Part shown: piece by piece, positions 2,792 through 8,555 of the stretch
Numbering within the stretch: position 1 is the stretch's first letter
How the letters are laid out: every line of letters begins with the position of its first letter
Notes under the pieces: model-generated
Seen by the model: only the letters and a program-made list of their open reading frames with translations
Told to the model about the DNA's origin: nothing
Database searches by the model: none
Assembly (NCBI GenBank): GCA_016937995.1
Contig: JAFGVM010000058.1
Span: 1 to 11,287, forward strand
Source: Candidatus Delongbacteria bacterium
GTDB taxonomy: Bacteria; UBA4055
Length of the DNA stretch: 11,287 nt
Direction of reading: 5' to 3'
Translations under genes and position numbers: made by a program

Positions 2792-3642
2792 CATTTCAGG
2801 CTTCCAATAAAAACTCGATCATTTCCGCCATAATCCCTAATGATCTTAATATCTTTAAATTTGTCCTTAAAGATATTCTTAACAGGTTCAGCCTGCTCAA
2901 AACCGATCTCCAAAAACAGCATACCGTCAGGCTGTAATATTTTTTCAATTATTTCATTTATCCTTCTGTAAAATTTCAAACCGTCACCTTCATCAGTCAA
3001 TGCTGTTCTCGGTTCATGGTCCTTTACTTTAGGATCAAGACCATTATAATCTTTTAATGAAATGTACGGAGGGTTAGAAATTACAATATCGTGGAGTGAC
3101 CTTGATGGAGCATTCCTGAACAGATCCCACTTAAAAAATTTTATCTTACCTGAGAGTTCATTTATATCTGCATTTTTTCTAGCCGTATCCAGAATTTCAT
3201 TAGAAATATCGGAGGCAAAAAATAAATTATTCGGACATTCTTTCGCTATAGCTATAGGGATACAACCGCTTCCGGTGCCTATATCCAGTATTCTAAGATT
3301 TTTATCCGATAAATATTTGATAACTTCCTCAACAAGTATCTCTGTGTCATTTCTAGGGATCAAAGTGTGTTCATTTACCATTATCCTGACGTTATAGAAA
3401 TCTTTTTCACCCTTGATATATTGGACCGGTTCATTAAAGGAACTTCTTTTTAGTAATGGTCTTATCTTAGCTAGTTCCTCTTCAGTAACTAACCTGTCAT
3501 ACTGCAGATAAAGATCAAGCCTTTTCATACTTAACGCACTTGAAACTATGAGTTCAGCATTTAATCTCGGTTCTTCGATATTGTGTTCTTTTAGGTAATC
3601 TGTAGAGAGGTTTAATATATCTAAAAGTTTTTTATCTGCCAT
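2791..3642 (-). CDS. prmC: peptide chain release factor N5-glutamine methyltransferase
   Basis: Class I SAM-dependent methyltransferase that modifies the glutamine of the GGQ loop in release factors RF1 and RF2. At 283 residues it has normal family length. Visible are the N-terminal helical domain, PVQYIKGEKDFYN (72-84) and PRNDTE (96-101, the PRPETE region), the SAM-binding LDIGTGSG (119-126), the acidic Asp of motif II around 145, and the catalytic NPPY (190-193) that positions the glutamine amide. The ATG overlaps the selA stop (TAATG), with GGAAG about 11 bases upstream. It ends in TGA, evidence that UGA still serves as a stop here. In this operon its link to selA may be incidental, though both touch UGA decoding: RF2, a PrmC substrate, competes with Sec insertion at UGA. 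Confidence 0.95.
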   Translation of the reverse strand: MADKKLLDILNLSTDYLKEHNIEEPRLNAELIVSSALSMKRLDLYLQYDRLVTEEELAKIRPLLKRSSFNEPVQYIKGEKDFYNVRIMVNEHTLIPRNDTEILVEEVIKYLSDKNLRILDIGTGSGCIPIAIAKECPNNLFFASDISNEILDTARKNADINELSGKIKFFKWDLFRNAPSRSLHDIVISNPPYISLKDYNGLDPKVKDHEPRTALTDEGDGLKFYRRINEIIEKILQPDGMLFLEIGFEQAEPVKNIFKDKFKDIKIIRDYGGNDRVFIGSLK

Positions 3643-5039
3643 TATATATCGTACTTCCTTATTATCTCATTCAAATTTTGTTTGATCTGGGAAAATTCAT
3701 TCTCAAAAATAGTCCTTGAACTTAAATAATATTTTTCGTCTGAAATATATCCGAAAACAGGAGTTTTACTGATCATCCTCATTTCTTTTGAAAGTTTAGA
3801 AACTCCAAGGTCATTCTGCTCTATTGAAACTGCGAGACCTTCAAGTTTTTCAGTAGGTAAAGTCCCGGATCCTGCCTGATCTAGAACATTTTCAACTTTT
3901 ACTTTCCAGTGTTTTGGTACAATTGATTCAATCTGTTCCTTCAATTTTTCAGATTTTTTCTTAAGATCACTTCTTTTTGCTGAAAGTAACTTCAGAGTTA
4001 AATGACCTGAATTTACAGGGTCCTTTTCAACGAAAATCTTGAGGGTTTCCTCTAAAAGTGCCAATCTTATCTTATCCGTTCTCAATACACGCATCAATGG
4101 ATTCTTTTTTACTTTTTCTATCAGTTCCTTACTTCCTGCTATGATACCGCATTGCGGTCCGCCAAGAACCTTGTCTCCGCTAAAAGAATAAATATCTGCA
4201 CCATCATTGATAGCTTCCTGGACAGTTGGTTCGTGAGGCAATCCGTATTTATCCAGATCTGAAAAGATCCCGCCTCCCAGATCATAATAGAATGGTATAT
4301 TATGTTTTTTTCCTAGTTCTGCCAGCTCTTTAACAGTAACTTCATCCGTAAATCCTTCAATTCTATAATTTGAAGTATGAACTTTGACCAAAGCACCGGT
4401 TTTTGTTGTAATTGCATCTTCATAATCAGAAATCTTTGTCTTATTTGTAGAACCGACCTCAAACATCTTTCCACCGGATTTCTTGATCACATCAGGCATT
4501 CTGAACGACCCGCCGATCTCTACAAGTTCACCGCGGGATACAATGACTTCTTTTCTTTGAGCCAACGTATTAATACATATCATTACTGCTGCTGCGTTAT
4601 TATTGACTACCGTTGCCGCTTCAGCACCTGTTATAATACTGATAAGTTCACTTATTTTATCTTCTCTACGACCTCTCTTCCCTGTTTCAACATTGACCTC
4701 AAGGGTTGAATAACCCTGAAGAATACCCTGAAGATTTTCCAGAGCAACTTCTGATAACGGTGCTCTTCCAAGACCTGTATTTAGAACAATACCTGTCGCG
4801 TTTACAGCATGGCGGGTAAATGGAAGAAATCTTTCTGAAATAGAATCTGATATCTTAGATAAAATATCTTTATCAATACTCTTCCTTTTATTTTTTAAGA
4901 TATCACGGCGAACAGTATCCAGTTCATCCTGAATAAGCTTCACCAATATTTCATGCTTATATTTATTCCTCAGTGATACAAACTCATTACTTTCAAGAAC
5001 TTTATCCACTTTAGGTATATTTTTTAATATATTCTGCAT
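3642..5039 (-). CDS. selA: L-seryl-tRNA(Sec) selenium transferase (selenocysteine synthase)
   Basis: PLP enzyme that converts seryl-tRNA(Sec) to selenocysteyl-tRNA(Sec) using selenophosphate, in the cytoplasm. Collinear similarity to E. coli SelA is plain: RHAVNATGIVLNTGLGRAPL, VVNNNAAAVM, VSRGELVEIGGSFRMPDV, VKVHTSNYRIEGFT, and SFSGDKVLGGPQCGI, whose Lys (residue 290 from the chosen start) binds PLP. The N-terminal helical domain for tRNA(Sec) is present. The chosen start is ATG 5039, with AGGA just upstream; an in-frame TTG at 5051 gives four more residues but lacks a ribosome site. It lies 16 bases after the double ferritin-like gene and overlaps prmC. It shows that the genome makes selenocysteine and supports reading nearby in-frame UGAs as Sec. 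selB, selC and selD are not in the window. Confidence 0.96.
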   Translation of the reverse strand: MQNILKNIPKVDKVLESNEFVSLRNKYKHEILVKLIQDELDTVRRDILKNKRKSIDKDILSKISDSISERFLPFTRHAVNATGIVLNTGLGRAPLSEVALENLQGILQGYSTLEVNVETGKRGRREDKISELISIITGAEAATVVNNNAAAVMICINTLAQRKEVIVSRGELVEIGGSFRMPDVIKKSGGKMFEVGSTNKTKISDYEDAITTKTGALVKVHTSNYRIEGFTDEVTVKELAELGKKHNIPFYYDLGGGIFSDLDKYGLPHEPTVQEAINDGADIYSFSGDKVLGGPQCGIIAGSKELIEKVKKNPLMRVLRTDKIRLALLEETLKIFVEKDPVNSGHLTLKLLSAKRSDLKKKSEKLKEQIESIVPKHWKVKVENVLDQAGSGTLPTEKLEGLAVSIEQNDLGVSKLSKEMRMISKTPVFGYISDEKYYLSSRTIFENEFSQIKQNLNEIIRKYDI

Positions 5040-5055
5040 TGTTCCTACCAAATTT

Positions 5056-6015
5056 TTAATCGAATTTTATAATATTTCTTACTCTGATCGAATTTATTAT
5101 ATCTCTGTGTTTTTTTGTGTCGATAGAAAGATTTTTTAGTATTTCAACAATCATAGGATCATCTGAGTCGAACAGCTTGAACAGATCTTTCTCAATTATC
5201 GAATTTTCTAAAATAAAAGCGAATGAATATGCCATTTCAAGAGTGTATTCATCAGTAAATACTTTTGCCATTTCATTCTTAACATTATTAATTGAAACTT
5301 TTACTTCTTCAAGGGAGCTGTCTCGATGGTCAAATCTGATCAACCCCTCGTTAATTTTTATAATGATCTGTTTGATCCATGCTTCGTGCTTTTTTTCCTC
5401 TTCCACAAGAAAAATCCATACACTCTCTTTAGTGAATTTTTTACTGTAGTAAGAATACAATTGACTTATCATCCTTTCATGTTCGGCATGATATCCCAAC
5501 AGAACAAGTCCTTTATCTATCTCCTCTTTCAGCTCTTTATTCGTCTTACAATTATTTAATAATTCATCAAGTTTTTTCTCTAAAACATCCTTATGCGATT
5601 CGGTGTCCTTTTTAAGATCATCCAATACTTTCTGAATACCTTTAAGATCACTCCAAAAACTATCGAACATTTTTCTTTCAATTATTGAATTTTCCAAATT
5701 CTTTGCAAAATCAACTACTTCAGACAACTTAATACCGTATTTTTCCACTTTTAATCTGAAATCAACGATCGATTCTATGGATTTTGAAATATATTCAACA
5801 GAATAATGCCTTTTATCAAACTTCACTGAACCTTCAACAACATTGTCTAATATTGATCTTAGCCAATCTGCATGTTTAAATTCCTCTTTAGACAAAAAAT
5901 CCCAGATATCCATATCAGGGAAATACGCATTTAATACAGAATATAGATTACCTATAGCTTCTTCATGAAATGCCATTAGTTCTATGATCTCAAAAATTTC
6001 TTCTTTTTCATTCAT
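5056..6015 (-). CDS. tandem double ferritin-like (rubrerythrin-type) protein
   Basis: This 319-residue protein consists of two copies of a four-helix ferritin-like module of about 155 residues. Each copy has the likely diiron ligands in order. Module one: Glu18/19 in HEEAIGNLY, EEFKH (44-48), LENSIIER (107-114; Glu108 and Glu113) and DTESH (137-141). Module two: Glu180 in HERMISQLY, EEEKKH (205-210), LENSIIEK (269-276) and DTKKH (299-303). No rubredoxin zinc site is present, so it is not a full rubrerythrin. A basic/acidic linker joins the modules (about 150-170). No signal peptide is seen, so it is likely cytoplasmic. Its start overlaps the upstream 171-residue paralogue by 8 bases, with AAAGGA upstream. 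Roles in peroxide reduction or iron handling are plausible; function is unproven. Confidence 0.8.
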   Translation of the reverse strand: MNEKEEIFEIIELMAFHEEAIGNLYSVLNAYFPDMDIWDFLSKEEFKHADWLRSILDNVVEGSVKFDKRHYSVEYISKSIESIVDFRLKVEKYGIKLSEVVDFAKNLENSIIERKMFDSFWSDLKGIQKVLDDLKKDTESHKDVLEKKLDELLNNCKTNKELKEEIDKGLVLLGYHAEHERMISQLYSYYSKKFTKESVWIFLVEEEKKHEAWIKQIIIKINEGLIRFDHRDSSLEEVKVSINNVKNEMAKVFTDEYTLEMAYSFAFILENSIIEKDLFKLFDSDDPMIVEILKNLSIDTKKHRDIINSIRVRNIIKFD

Positions 6016-6523
6016 TGTTGATCCTTTTCACTATATTTTCGAAAGAATTATACTCTTTCTCCTTTAAATATTCGTCCAGTGCTTTCTCTAAAATATTCTG
6101 ATGGGATTTAGTATCCGTCCTGAGTTGAACAAGAACTTTCTCCAATTCCGGATCATCGCTGCTGAAATAATTTAAAAAATTCTTCTCTAACATTGAACTT
6201 TCCAGCTTTAAAGCAAACTTTATAGCTTTACCAAGTGTTCTGCCTCCATTTTCAACAATTTTCAGTTCATTTAAAACCTGTTCGATAGCCATAGTGATCG
6301 TTTTAACCGAAAAATGCATGTCACTGAAATCTACAGAACCATCCTCAACATTATCTTTGATCGATATTACCAGATGAAAATGATCTTCTTCCTCTTTTCG
6401 CAGAAAAGTCCACAATTTAAAATCAGGGAATTTTTCACTGTAAGAGGTATAAAGATCAGCTAATGCCTGCTCATTCCTTGCTAACAATTCAACGATCTCA
6501 ACAATTTCTTCCCTTGTCTTCAT
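6008..6523 (-). CDS. single-module ferritin-like (rubrerythrin-type) protein
   Basis: This 171-residue protein is a paralogue of the following gene's module one, with nearly the same residue numbering: NEQALADLY (17-25; Glu18), EEEDH (44-48), LESSMLEK (107-114; Glu108 and Glu113) and DTKSH (137-141). Together these are the set expected for a diiron site in a four-helix bundle. Hydrophobic/charged periodicity fits helices throughout, and there is no signal peptide. It is the first gene of the operon leading to selA and prmC. The GGAG upstream of its ATG is about 12 bases away, longer than usual. It ends in TGA. It may pair with the double-module protein or be the ancestor from which that one grew by duplication. 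Oxidant or iron function is inference. Confidence 0.78.
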   Translation of the reverse strand: MKTREEIVEIVELLARNEQALADLYTSYSEKFPDFKLWTFLRKEEEDHFHLVISIKDNVEDGSVDFSDMHFSVKTITMAIEQVLNELKIVENGGRTLGKAIKFALKLESSMLEKNFLNYFSSDDPELEKVLVQLRTDTKSHQNILEKALDEYLKEKEYNSFENIVKRINNE

Positions 6524-6740: not shown

Positions 6741-8288
6741 ATGAAAAAGATATTACTTACAGTGCTTTTCCTTACATCAATGGTATTTGCCGGTGAAGGG
6801 GATGAACTGATCAACATTGGCGATATATCTTATCAGGATATGAACTGGAATGATAATGGAGACATTTTTTATTCAAGAAGAAATATACAGGATATGACTT
6901 CTAAAGGACAACCTGTTGTTATTCATTTTTTCACCGCCTGCTACAGTTGATCAGGTATTCAAACGATGCCGGAGGCGTCTTCCTTTGAAAGAGCTTACAA
7001 TAACATAAATCTAAAATCGGATATATATATTGTAGGTGCTTCTACAAATTTAAATTTGATCCCTGATCTTAAATATACCCAGGAAATAAATTTTATCCGT
7101 TATAATATGGCAACTGAAATTGAATTAGGACATTATTACAAATATTTTGATTTTGAAACTGACTATTATTCTAATTTCCTATTCATAGGCAAGAACAATA
7201 AAGTTATCGGAAAACTTGATTATTCAGCTACTCAGGAAGAATTAGAGAATATGTTCAATCTTACTTTAGCATCATTTGAAGGAATCCATAAAAGAAAACT
7301 TATTGAAAATACTATTCTTACCGGTGAGACTGTATCCTTTGATCTTAGTGATTACATTTACATTGAGGATGGAAAGAGTGCTCAATTTTCAATTAGCGGT
7401 AATTCAAATCCATTAGCCGTAACAGGAAATATTGGAAATGGTAAATTGAATTTGATAAAAGGAGAATACACCGGAAGTTCGAAAATGACCGTTCAGGTAA
7501 AAGTTCCCGAGAAAGAGATATATTTCAATATGGATTTCTACGTTTTCAGTGCATTGGGAGAGAGTGAGGATTTCGAATACGATTTACTTACTGAAAGTAA
7601 TCTTCCATGGGATAATGACAGAGAGGAATGGATCATAGCAGAAGATTTTTCTTTTACTGGAAATTATTCGATCAGATCCGGAGATATAGTGGACAAACTA
7701 TCCACAACTCTATCTTTGACAATAAATCTGGAGAACCCTGATTTTATAAGTTTCGCATACAGAACATCTTCTGAAGTTGGGGGTGACACCTTAAGTTTTC
7801 ACGTTGATAATACTTTAATGAACTTTTCAGACCCCGTTTCCTTATGGTCAGGTTATAATGACTGGAGAGTAGTGACCTATAATTTACGTCCTGGAGAGCA
7901 TATTTTAAAATGGACATATTCAAAGAATGATTTTGGAAGTGTTGGAGACGATTGTGTTTGGCTTGATGCTGTTGTTCTCCCTGTTAATTCTGTTGTGGGT
8001 AGTGGGATAGAGAACGATAAATTACCTTCCTCACTTGATATTTCAAATTATCCGAACCCTTTCAATCCTGATACCACTATTGATTTCTCACTTAACAGAG
8101 CTTCTAATGTAATATTAAGTATATATGACATGAACGGTCAGATAGTTGAAAAAATTCACGAAGGATTTACTCAGGCAGGAAATTACTCTCATAATTTCAA
8201 CGGGGACAATATCTCCAGTGGAATATATTATGCTGTTATTAAAACTGAGAATCAACAGAAAGTTTCAAAAATGATCCTTGTAAAATAA
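6741..8288 (+). CDS. exported thioredoxin-like selenoprotein with type IX secretion sorting domain (in-frame UGA = Sec)
   Basis: Read through the UGA at 6948-6950, one uninterrupted frame encodes 515 residues. Order: signal peptide 1-17 (cleavage after VFA); thioredoxin-like domain about 50-175, with strand PVVIHFF followed by Cys67-Tyr-Ser-Sec70, the place of CxxC; a beta-rich stretch about 185-268; a MAM/gingipain-adhesin-like jelly-roll about 275-414, with FISFAYRTSSE, DWRVVTYNL, HILKWTY and DDCVWLDAVVLP; and a sorting domain 436-515, starting at NYPNPFNP and ending KMILVK. The usual cis-proline before the FLFIG strand appears absent. The ATG follows GAGG by ten bases. Conventional calling would split it into a 69-residue peptide and a 440-residue protein starting at 6966, where no ribosome site exists. 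Support for Sec: selA next door, CxxU context and a downstream hairpin. It likely acts as a surface or secreted oxidoreductase; the substrate is unknown. The alternative is a nonsense mutation. Confidence 0.85.
6951..6979 (+). promoter_or_regulatory. candidate bacterial SECIS element
   Basis: Directly downstream of the UGA, GATGCC (6965-6970) pairs with GGCGTC (6974-6979), six pairs with one T-G, closing a GGA loop. The loop begins 20 bases after the UGA, within the distance known for SelB-dependent bacterial SECIS hairpins, and its first base is G as the family prefers. The stem is the most GC-rich spot in an AT-rich gene. The ATG at 6966 lies inside this stem. Confidence 0.7.
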
Positions 8289-8311: not shown

Positions 8312-8337
8312 AAAAGGGTGATCAGGTCACCCTTTTT
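8312..8337. terminator. bidirectional intrinsic terminator between the two selenoprotein genes
   Basis: AAAAGGGTGA (8312-8321) and TCACCCTTTT (8327-8336) form a perfect 10-bp stem with a TCAGG loop. A T run follows on the plus strand, and an equivalent run is on the minus strand. It lies 23 bases after the plus-strand selenoprotein stop. On the minus strand it contains the stop codon of the SelW-like gene, so it can end both convergent transcripts. Confidence 0.8.
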
Positions 8338-8555
8338 ACATTTAGTAATTTTTCCATCTCACCTTTATCCGGAAAACGCCCCTCTGTATATTTATCGAAT
8401 ACTGATTTACCGTCCAGAGTTATCTGAAAAATACCCCTACCTTTTTCTATCAGTTCAATTTCAGCATTTTTACAAGTTTCCAGAATTTCTTTTTCCACAC
8501 GGGAAGCGAACGGGAAATAATCTCAATCACCGCAGTATATAATTTTGATATTCAC
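8322..8555 (-). CDS. SelW/Rdx-family selenoprotein (CxxU, in-frame UGA = Sec)
   Basis: A 77-residue gene readable only if the UGA at 8523-8525 is decoded. The product starts VNIKIIYCGD-Sec and has Cys8-Gly-Asp-Sec11 at the end of the first strand, exactly as in SelW/SelT/SelH proteins of the Rdx thioredoxin-like family. Later family marks are GRGIFQITLDGKSVF and the terminal GRFPDKGEMEKLL. Size matches bacterial SelW-like proteins. The start is GTG at 8555, whose first base is the last base of the peptidase's TAG, with GGAG eight bases upstream inside the peptidase gene, so it is translationally coupled. No signal peptide is seen, so it is likely a cytoplasmic redox protein; the physiological substrate of the family is poorly known. 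The gene ends at TGA inside the terminator stem. The family match on both sides of the UGA makes Sec far likelier than a nonsense mutation. Confidence 0.88.
8489..8522 (-). promoter_or_regulatory. candidate bacterial SECIS element of the SelW-like gene
   Basis: Reading the minus strand after the UGA, TTCC (8505-8502) pairs with GGAA (8496-8493) around the loop CGTGT, which starts 21 bases after the UGA. G is the second loop base, followed by T, as in many bacterial SECIS loops. The stem is short; a competing pairing of TTTCC (8517-8513) with the same GGAAA is possible, so the exact fold is uncertain. Confidence 0.55.

Follow-up and report, generated by a model that had tools for sequence, protein, structure and literature searches.

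A candidate type IX-secreted selenoprotein with a thioredoxin-like domain, and its family in Candidatus Delongbacteria

Selenoproteins, thiol-disulphide oxidoreductases and type IX cargo

Most catalogued selenoproteins are redox proteins of the cytoplasm, membrane or periplasm. The gene considered here lies in an 11,287-nucleotide stretch of DNA (the window; contig C3) from a Candidatus Delongbacteria genome of 2.75 Mb and 97% completeness, and its product invites comparison with several described systems. The first comprises the extracytoplasmic thiol-disulphide oxidoreductases of the ResA/TlpA type, which resemble the N-terminal domain of the window protein in fold (Z 15.7), in the profile of its family (E 4.4e-12) and, probably, in being exported. 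The window protein differs from them in having selenocysteine (Sec) for Cys, in the jelly roll and type IX tail fused to its redox domain, and in belonging to a clade with CxxU and without the cis-Pro. Sec-containing TlpA, Redoxin and peroxiredoxin (Prx)-like families have also been catalogued, namely UGC-TlpA, thiol-disulphide isomerase-like and Prx-like families with UxxC, and Trx7/PDZ with CxxU (PMC13188914). They combine a thioredoxin (Trx)-like fold with UxxC or CxxU, as here, but a type IX sorting domain is listed for none of them. The Sec-peroxiredoxins (TxxU) share with the window clade the TxxU found in two orthologues, the invariant Sec and the missing cis-Pro; by contrast, the window clade is without the PxxxT motif and its fold is nearer to ResA.

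Type IX (type A) cargo of Bacteroidota and their relatives shares with the window protein modular beta domains, a Por_Secre_tail domain, a genome encoding SprA and PorU and, probably, a signal peptide; the difference is that the candidate cargo of the window would contain Sec. To our knowledge, no Sec-containing type IX cargo is known. Selenoproteins catalogued in the outer membrane include a TonB-dependent receptor with FCYxU and the MtrB/PioB-like GSU2204 (PMC13188914); they too carry Sec beyond the inner membrane, but they are integral barrels and not type IX cargo. The preliminary description of the locus had stated that no selenoprotein with a type IX sorting domain was known to be described, and this stands: such cargo is absent from the 119 prokaryotic selenoprotein families of the 2026 catalogue (PMC13188914), and the open-access literature on selenoproteins or selenocysteine with type IX secretion, or on Delongbacteria with either, held nothing relevant, an absence that is not proof. 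The component parts are of known kinds; what appears to be new is their combination, the expansion of the family and the placing of Sec at the surface.

One reading frame across UGA70 and the means to decode it

The anatomy of the gene, its family, the covariation of its hairpin and the genes of the decoding machinery were established by sequence and computation (Table 1). A single frame, ending in TAA, is interrupted only by a UGA at codon 70, in agreement with the preliminary description, and this TGA is placed right behind a Trx-type beta-strand (...PVVIHFFTACYS-U-SGIQTMPEASS...). As that description had also foreseen, standard annotation splits the gene: translation table 11 yields two ORFs of 69 and 440 aa. 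The split could be taken at face value. UGA70 would then be a genuine stop or an error of sequencing, and the locus either a decayed gene or the source of a short peptide and of a 440-aa protein starting at the ATG of codon 76. The ATG start of the second ORF is compatible with this, and TGA is an ordinary stop in the host genome, for example at the end of ORF 6008-6523. Against it, the TGA at the redox position is shared by dozens of paralogues and by the orthologues of ten independent assemblies, the frame is open and conserved on both sides of UGA70, a covarying hairpin lies downstream and the Sec apparatus is complete. A pseudogene, a sequencing error and two separate ORFs were all rejected, and we regard a genuine stop or error as extremely improbable. 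The TGA of this frame is not a product of chance, as it recurs singly, at the same redox position, in five paralogues of the genome and in over 40 homologues elsewhere. The split gene very probably encodes one Sec-containing redox protein exported to the surface through the type IX system.

Table 1. Positions of annotated features in the window
Feature	Positions	Strand	Basis
selA, L-seryl-tRNA(Sec) selenium transferase	3642..5051	-	PF03841 E 8.9e-141; 470 bits
Selenoprotein CDS, 515 aa, UGA70 = Sec	6741..8288	+	single TGA, paralogues, homologues
Probable signal peptide, MKKILLTVLFLTSMVFA	6741..6791	+	sequence by eye; helix 2-17 in AF2 model
Thioredoxin-like (ResA-type) domain, residues 22-180	6804..7280	+	VIA-align Z 15.7 to ResA 1st9; family profile vs ResA E 4.4e-12
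Cys67 of CYSU	6939..6941	+	Cys in 8/10 orthologues, Thr in 2/10
UGA codon for Sec70	6948..6950	+	invariant, 10/10 orthologues
bSECIS-like hairpin, 6 bp stem, GGA loop beginning 20 nt past UGA	6965..6979	+	
Jelly-roll beta domain, MAM/CBM-like, residues 272-416	7554..7988	+	Z 14.4 meprin beta 4gwm; 12.5 TmCBM61
Type IX (type A) C-terminal sorting domain, residues 437-512	8049..8276	+	PF18962 45 bits, TIGR04183 45 bits
Second selenoprotein gene, SelT/SelW/SelH family, CGDU, GTG start, UGA 8523-8525	8322..8555	-	NF041051 E 2.9e-22

The host genome has the full set of selA, selB, selC and selD. Besides selA, already recognized in the window by the preliminary description, the genes selB (334 bits) and selD (354 bits, itself carrying one TGA) and a tRNA-Sec with anticodon UCA (58.4 bits vs 47) were found where that description had proposed to look for them. 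A bSECIS element, another feature that it had proposed to look for, is matched by the hairpin 20 nt past the window UGA, which fits the bSECIS model and has a predicted energy of -9.0 to -9.5 kcal/mol. Most UGAs of the family are likewise followed, 16-21 nt downstream, by a hairpin whose apical loop is small and contains G, in line with the published model. Among ten window orthologues, 60/60 pair cells of the hairpin contain standard pairs, 12 of them with both bases changed (stems such as AUGCC/GGCGU, CUGCC/GGCAG and AAGCC/GGCUU); the observed pairing was reached by 0/500 shuffles, and slid controls fell to 28-63%. CCG and GAG, shared by all ten orthologues, are minority codons (0.215 and 0.298). 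Compared with synonymous recodings, the hairpins are more stable (mean z -1.86 over 49 sites), being individually below 0.05 at only 18; their energies vary and are weak at some paralogue sites. An Rfam scan of the window gave weak chance matches only. Genome-wide recoding of UGA is ruled out, as other genes terminate at UGA.

The second selenoprotein gene of the window had been left unmentioned in the preliminary description. It overlaps the end of the M20 peptidase gene, and an orthologue is found at the same place in another locus (L062). Two proteins encoded at 5056-6523 (-) have a repeated helical, ferritin-like look, with E..H/E..KH patterns, and Pfam matches neither; homologues are found on the flanks of the locus in L062 and L064.

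A family of tailed redox proteins

A scan of genome contigs with the window protein alone returned zero relatives. The family was searched with a profile built from six N-domains of the host genome: that of the window protein and those of five paralogues, which carry VGUSTC (contig C71), GUNTC, WUPGC and GUISC (a tandem of three on C50) and GUPGC (C46). All five have a signal-like N-terminus, a single TGA at the redox position of the window protein and a type IX tail. With this profile, members were found in 11/13 genomes of the bacterial family, and the bacterial group holds about 50 genes, nearly all of them frames that span about 500 aa and contain just one TGA. One further member, with ATWUGGC and a tail, comes from another phylum, in which its genome (G013) was the only one with a member. 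More distant matches lack a type IX tail and belong to the ordinary CxxC TlpA/ResA proteins. Synteny of the window locus, including a convergent M20 peptidase gene, extends to six relatives. An exact correspondence between type IX-secreted selenoproteins and the Sec apparatus was considered and fails, as two genomes (G006 and G008) have selB and no clear member.

A Sec-TGA is present in 47 of the 51 members aligned, from the 11 Delongbacteria-family genomes and the genome of the other phylum. Their tree contains 37 UxxC members, 8 CxxU members, among them that of the window, 2 with TxxU, a single CxxC member (L080, TWCVPC, tailed) and 3 in which the site is lost. The CxxU members form one clade (support 96/85), which is joined to the TxxU members at 99/96. 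The CxxU centre of the preliminary description thus holds for the window protein and its clade and fails as the norm of the family, where UxxC occurs in 37/47 Sec members. Homologues compared at position 70, as that description had suggested, have UGA or Cys there, and none of the outcomes that it had named as refuting its selenoprotein proposal occurred. The best explanation, to which as a whole we assign a probability of about 0.87, is one 515-residue Sec protein exported by the type IX system, with Sec70 as its redox centre, which belongs, as one branch, to a family expanded in Delongbacteria.

Several members depart from the usual plan. Three tailed proteins (L074, L086 and L087) have neither Sec nor a Cys pair at the site, an apparent loss of the redox centre, and three short ones of about 280 aa (L071, L072 and L081) have the Trx-like Sec domain fused straight to the type IX tail, without a jelly roll. 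As a side observation, contig C46 has on its minus strand (L019, about 3.2-4.2 kb) a lipoprotein-like frame with FLADGUASC and a single TGA at the site, probably another exported selenoprotein; it adjoins a Cys-type TlpA (FWASWCVPC).

Predicted secretion, fold and possible chemistry

The type IX sorting domain that had been proposed at the C-terminus is borne out by a Por_Secre_tail match (E 1.4e-11, 45 bits, cut-off 27) that exceeds the curated cut-offs of both Pfam and NCBIfam. All 29 full-length members scanned (29/29) have such a tail, and two L061 members end without it. The window N-terminus, by eye, is typical of a signal peptide. The search for type IX genes in the same genome, also suggested earlier, found both SprA (649.9 bits summed over its pieces) and the PorU sortase (557 bits) above cut-off, together with dozens of other proteins with a type IX tail. 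A periplasmic selenoprotein whose C-terminal domain has a structural role as a beta-sandwich and does not act as a sorting signal would fit the similarity of Por_Secre_tail to FlgD_ig folds; it is made quite unlikely by the tail match in two libraries, by the conserved NYPNPFNP and C-terminal Lys, and by the other tailed proteins, SprA and PorU of the genome. Delivery of the window protein to the surface is what its sorting domain and the type IX genes would predict. At another locus (L017, 82-1653, minus strand), a cyclophilin-type peptidyl-prolyl isomerase is fused to a jelly roll of the same type and carries a type IX tail; it is apparently another folding or redox enzyme sent outside.

In the AF2 model of the window protein (mean pLDDT 85.8), residues 22-180 superpose on ResA with an rmsd of 2.2 over 133 aligned residues, and they also match other extracytoplasmic thiol-disulphide oxidoreductases. 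The N-domain by itself matched no model in Pfam or in NCBIfam; the family N-domain profile matched ResA and PDI in the PDB. The jelly roll noticed in the preliminary description is recovered as a domain that matches MAM domains (meprin) and then CBM61. A C/U-x-x-C/U pair occupies the strand-helix loop, as CYSU in the window protein and UxxC in 37 paralogues, the register of the window clade being ambiguous. MAFFT pairs C67 of the window with the Sec of the paralogues and U70 with their Cys, which implies an inverted Sec/Cys order, and an alternative, possible alignment of Sec on Sec requires a one-residue shift. A further AF2 model, built for a UxxC paralogue, was weaker than that of the window protein (pLDDT 79.9, pTM 0.41) and did not decide between the two registers. 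The thioredoxin cis-Pro is missing in the window clade (SNFLFIG) and kept in the paralogues (VPLF etc.); the protein is therefore termed ResA-like in fold and not a member of ResA/TlpA. As Cys67 is Thr in two orthologues, Sec70 is the invariant residue.

The window protein is likely to be an oxidoreductase, as the preliminary description had proposed; with a Cys67 that is not invariant and without the cis-Pro, it may act on disulphides or on peroxides. It is possible, if clearly the lesser prospect, that the window clade acts at the surface as a peroxidase of the peroxiredoxin or GPx-like kind, with Sec as the peroxidatic residue. The invariant Sec, the TxxU of two orthologues, as in Sec-peroxiredoxins, and the missing cis-Pro all point that way, and peroxiredoxins are close in structure (AhpC Z 12.3, Bcp1 Z 12.6; range Z 12-13). 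They nevertheless rank below ResA, most paralogues have UxxC and the cis-Pro, and the PxxxTxx(C/U) motif is not seen, Thr occurring only in two orthologues, P being missing and the window protein itself having C. Less probable still, the Sec/Cys pair may have an extracellular role in binding or transforming metals and metalloids (Hg, As, Se) or sulfane sulfur, without redox turnover of the oxidoreductase kind. Several catalogued CxxU selenoproteins handle metals (PMC13188914) and an extracellular reductant is not evident, but the fold is of the thiol-disulphide oxidoreductase type and the window has no metal-resistance neighbours.

For an exported Sec oxidoreductase, the course that we infer, from Sec insertion through secretion to catalysis and its electron donor, would begin with SelB and Sec-tRNA(UCA) decoding UGA70 as Sec, guided by the downstream hairpin. 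The signal peptide would take the protein across the inner membrane, and the protein may then fold to give its three domains, the ResA-like one of thioredoxin type, the jelly roll and the type IX sorting domain. The SprA translocon would move it over the outer membrane and PorU would cut off the tail, so that the protein stays on the surface or is released, the jelly roll probably acting as an anchor to a glycan or protein ligand. Sec70 would be the nucleophilic redox centre, with Cys67 as its partner in most orthologues, and would most likely reduce extracellular disulphides or peroxides.

Selenol chemistry on proteins sent whole through the outer membrane would add to the locations known for Sec, and Sec outside that membrane raises the question of its reductant there. 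Annotation of UGA as a stop hides expanded selenoprotein families, and this one offers a natural series of variants in Sec/Cys order within one fold. We lean towards a broader picture in which the phylum builds its cell surface with expanded type IX-secreted selenoproteins, a 'surface selenoproteome' of up to about 10 paralogues per genome, one branch of which may have inverted UxxC to CxxU and lost the cis-Pro for new extracellular chemistry.
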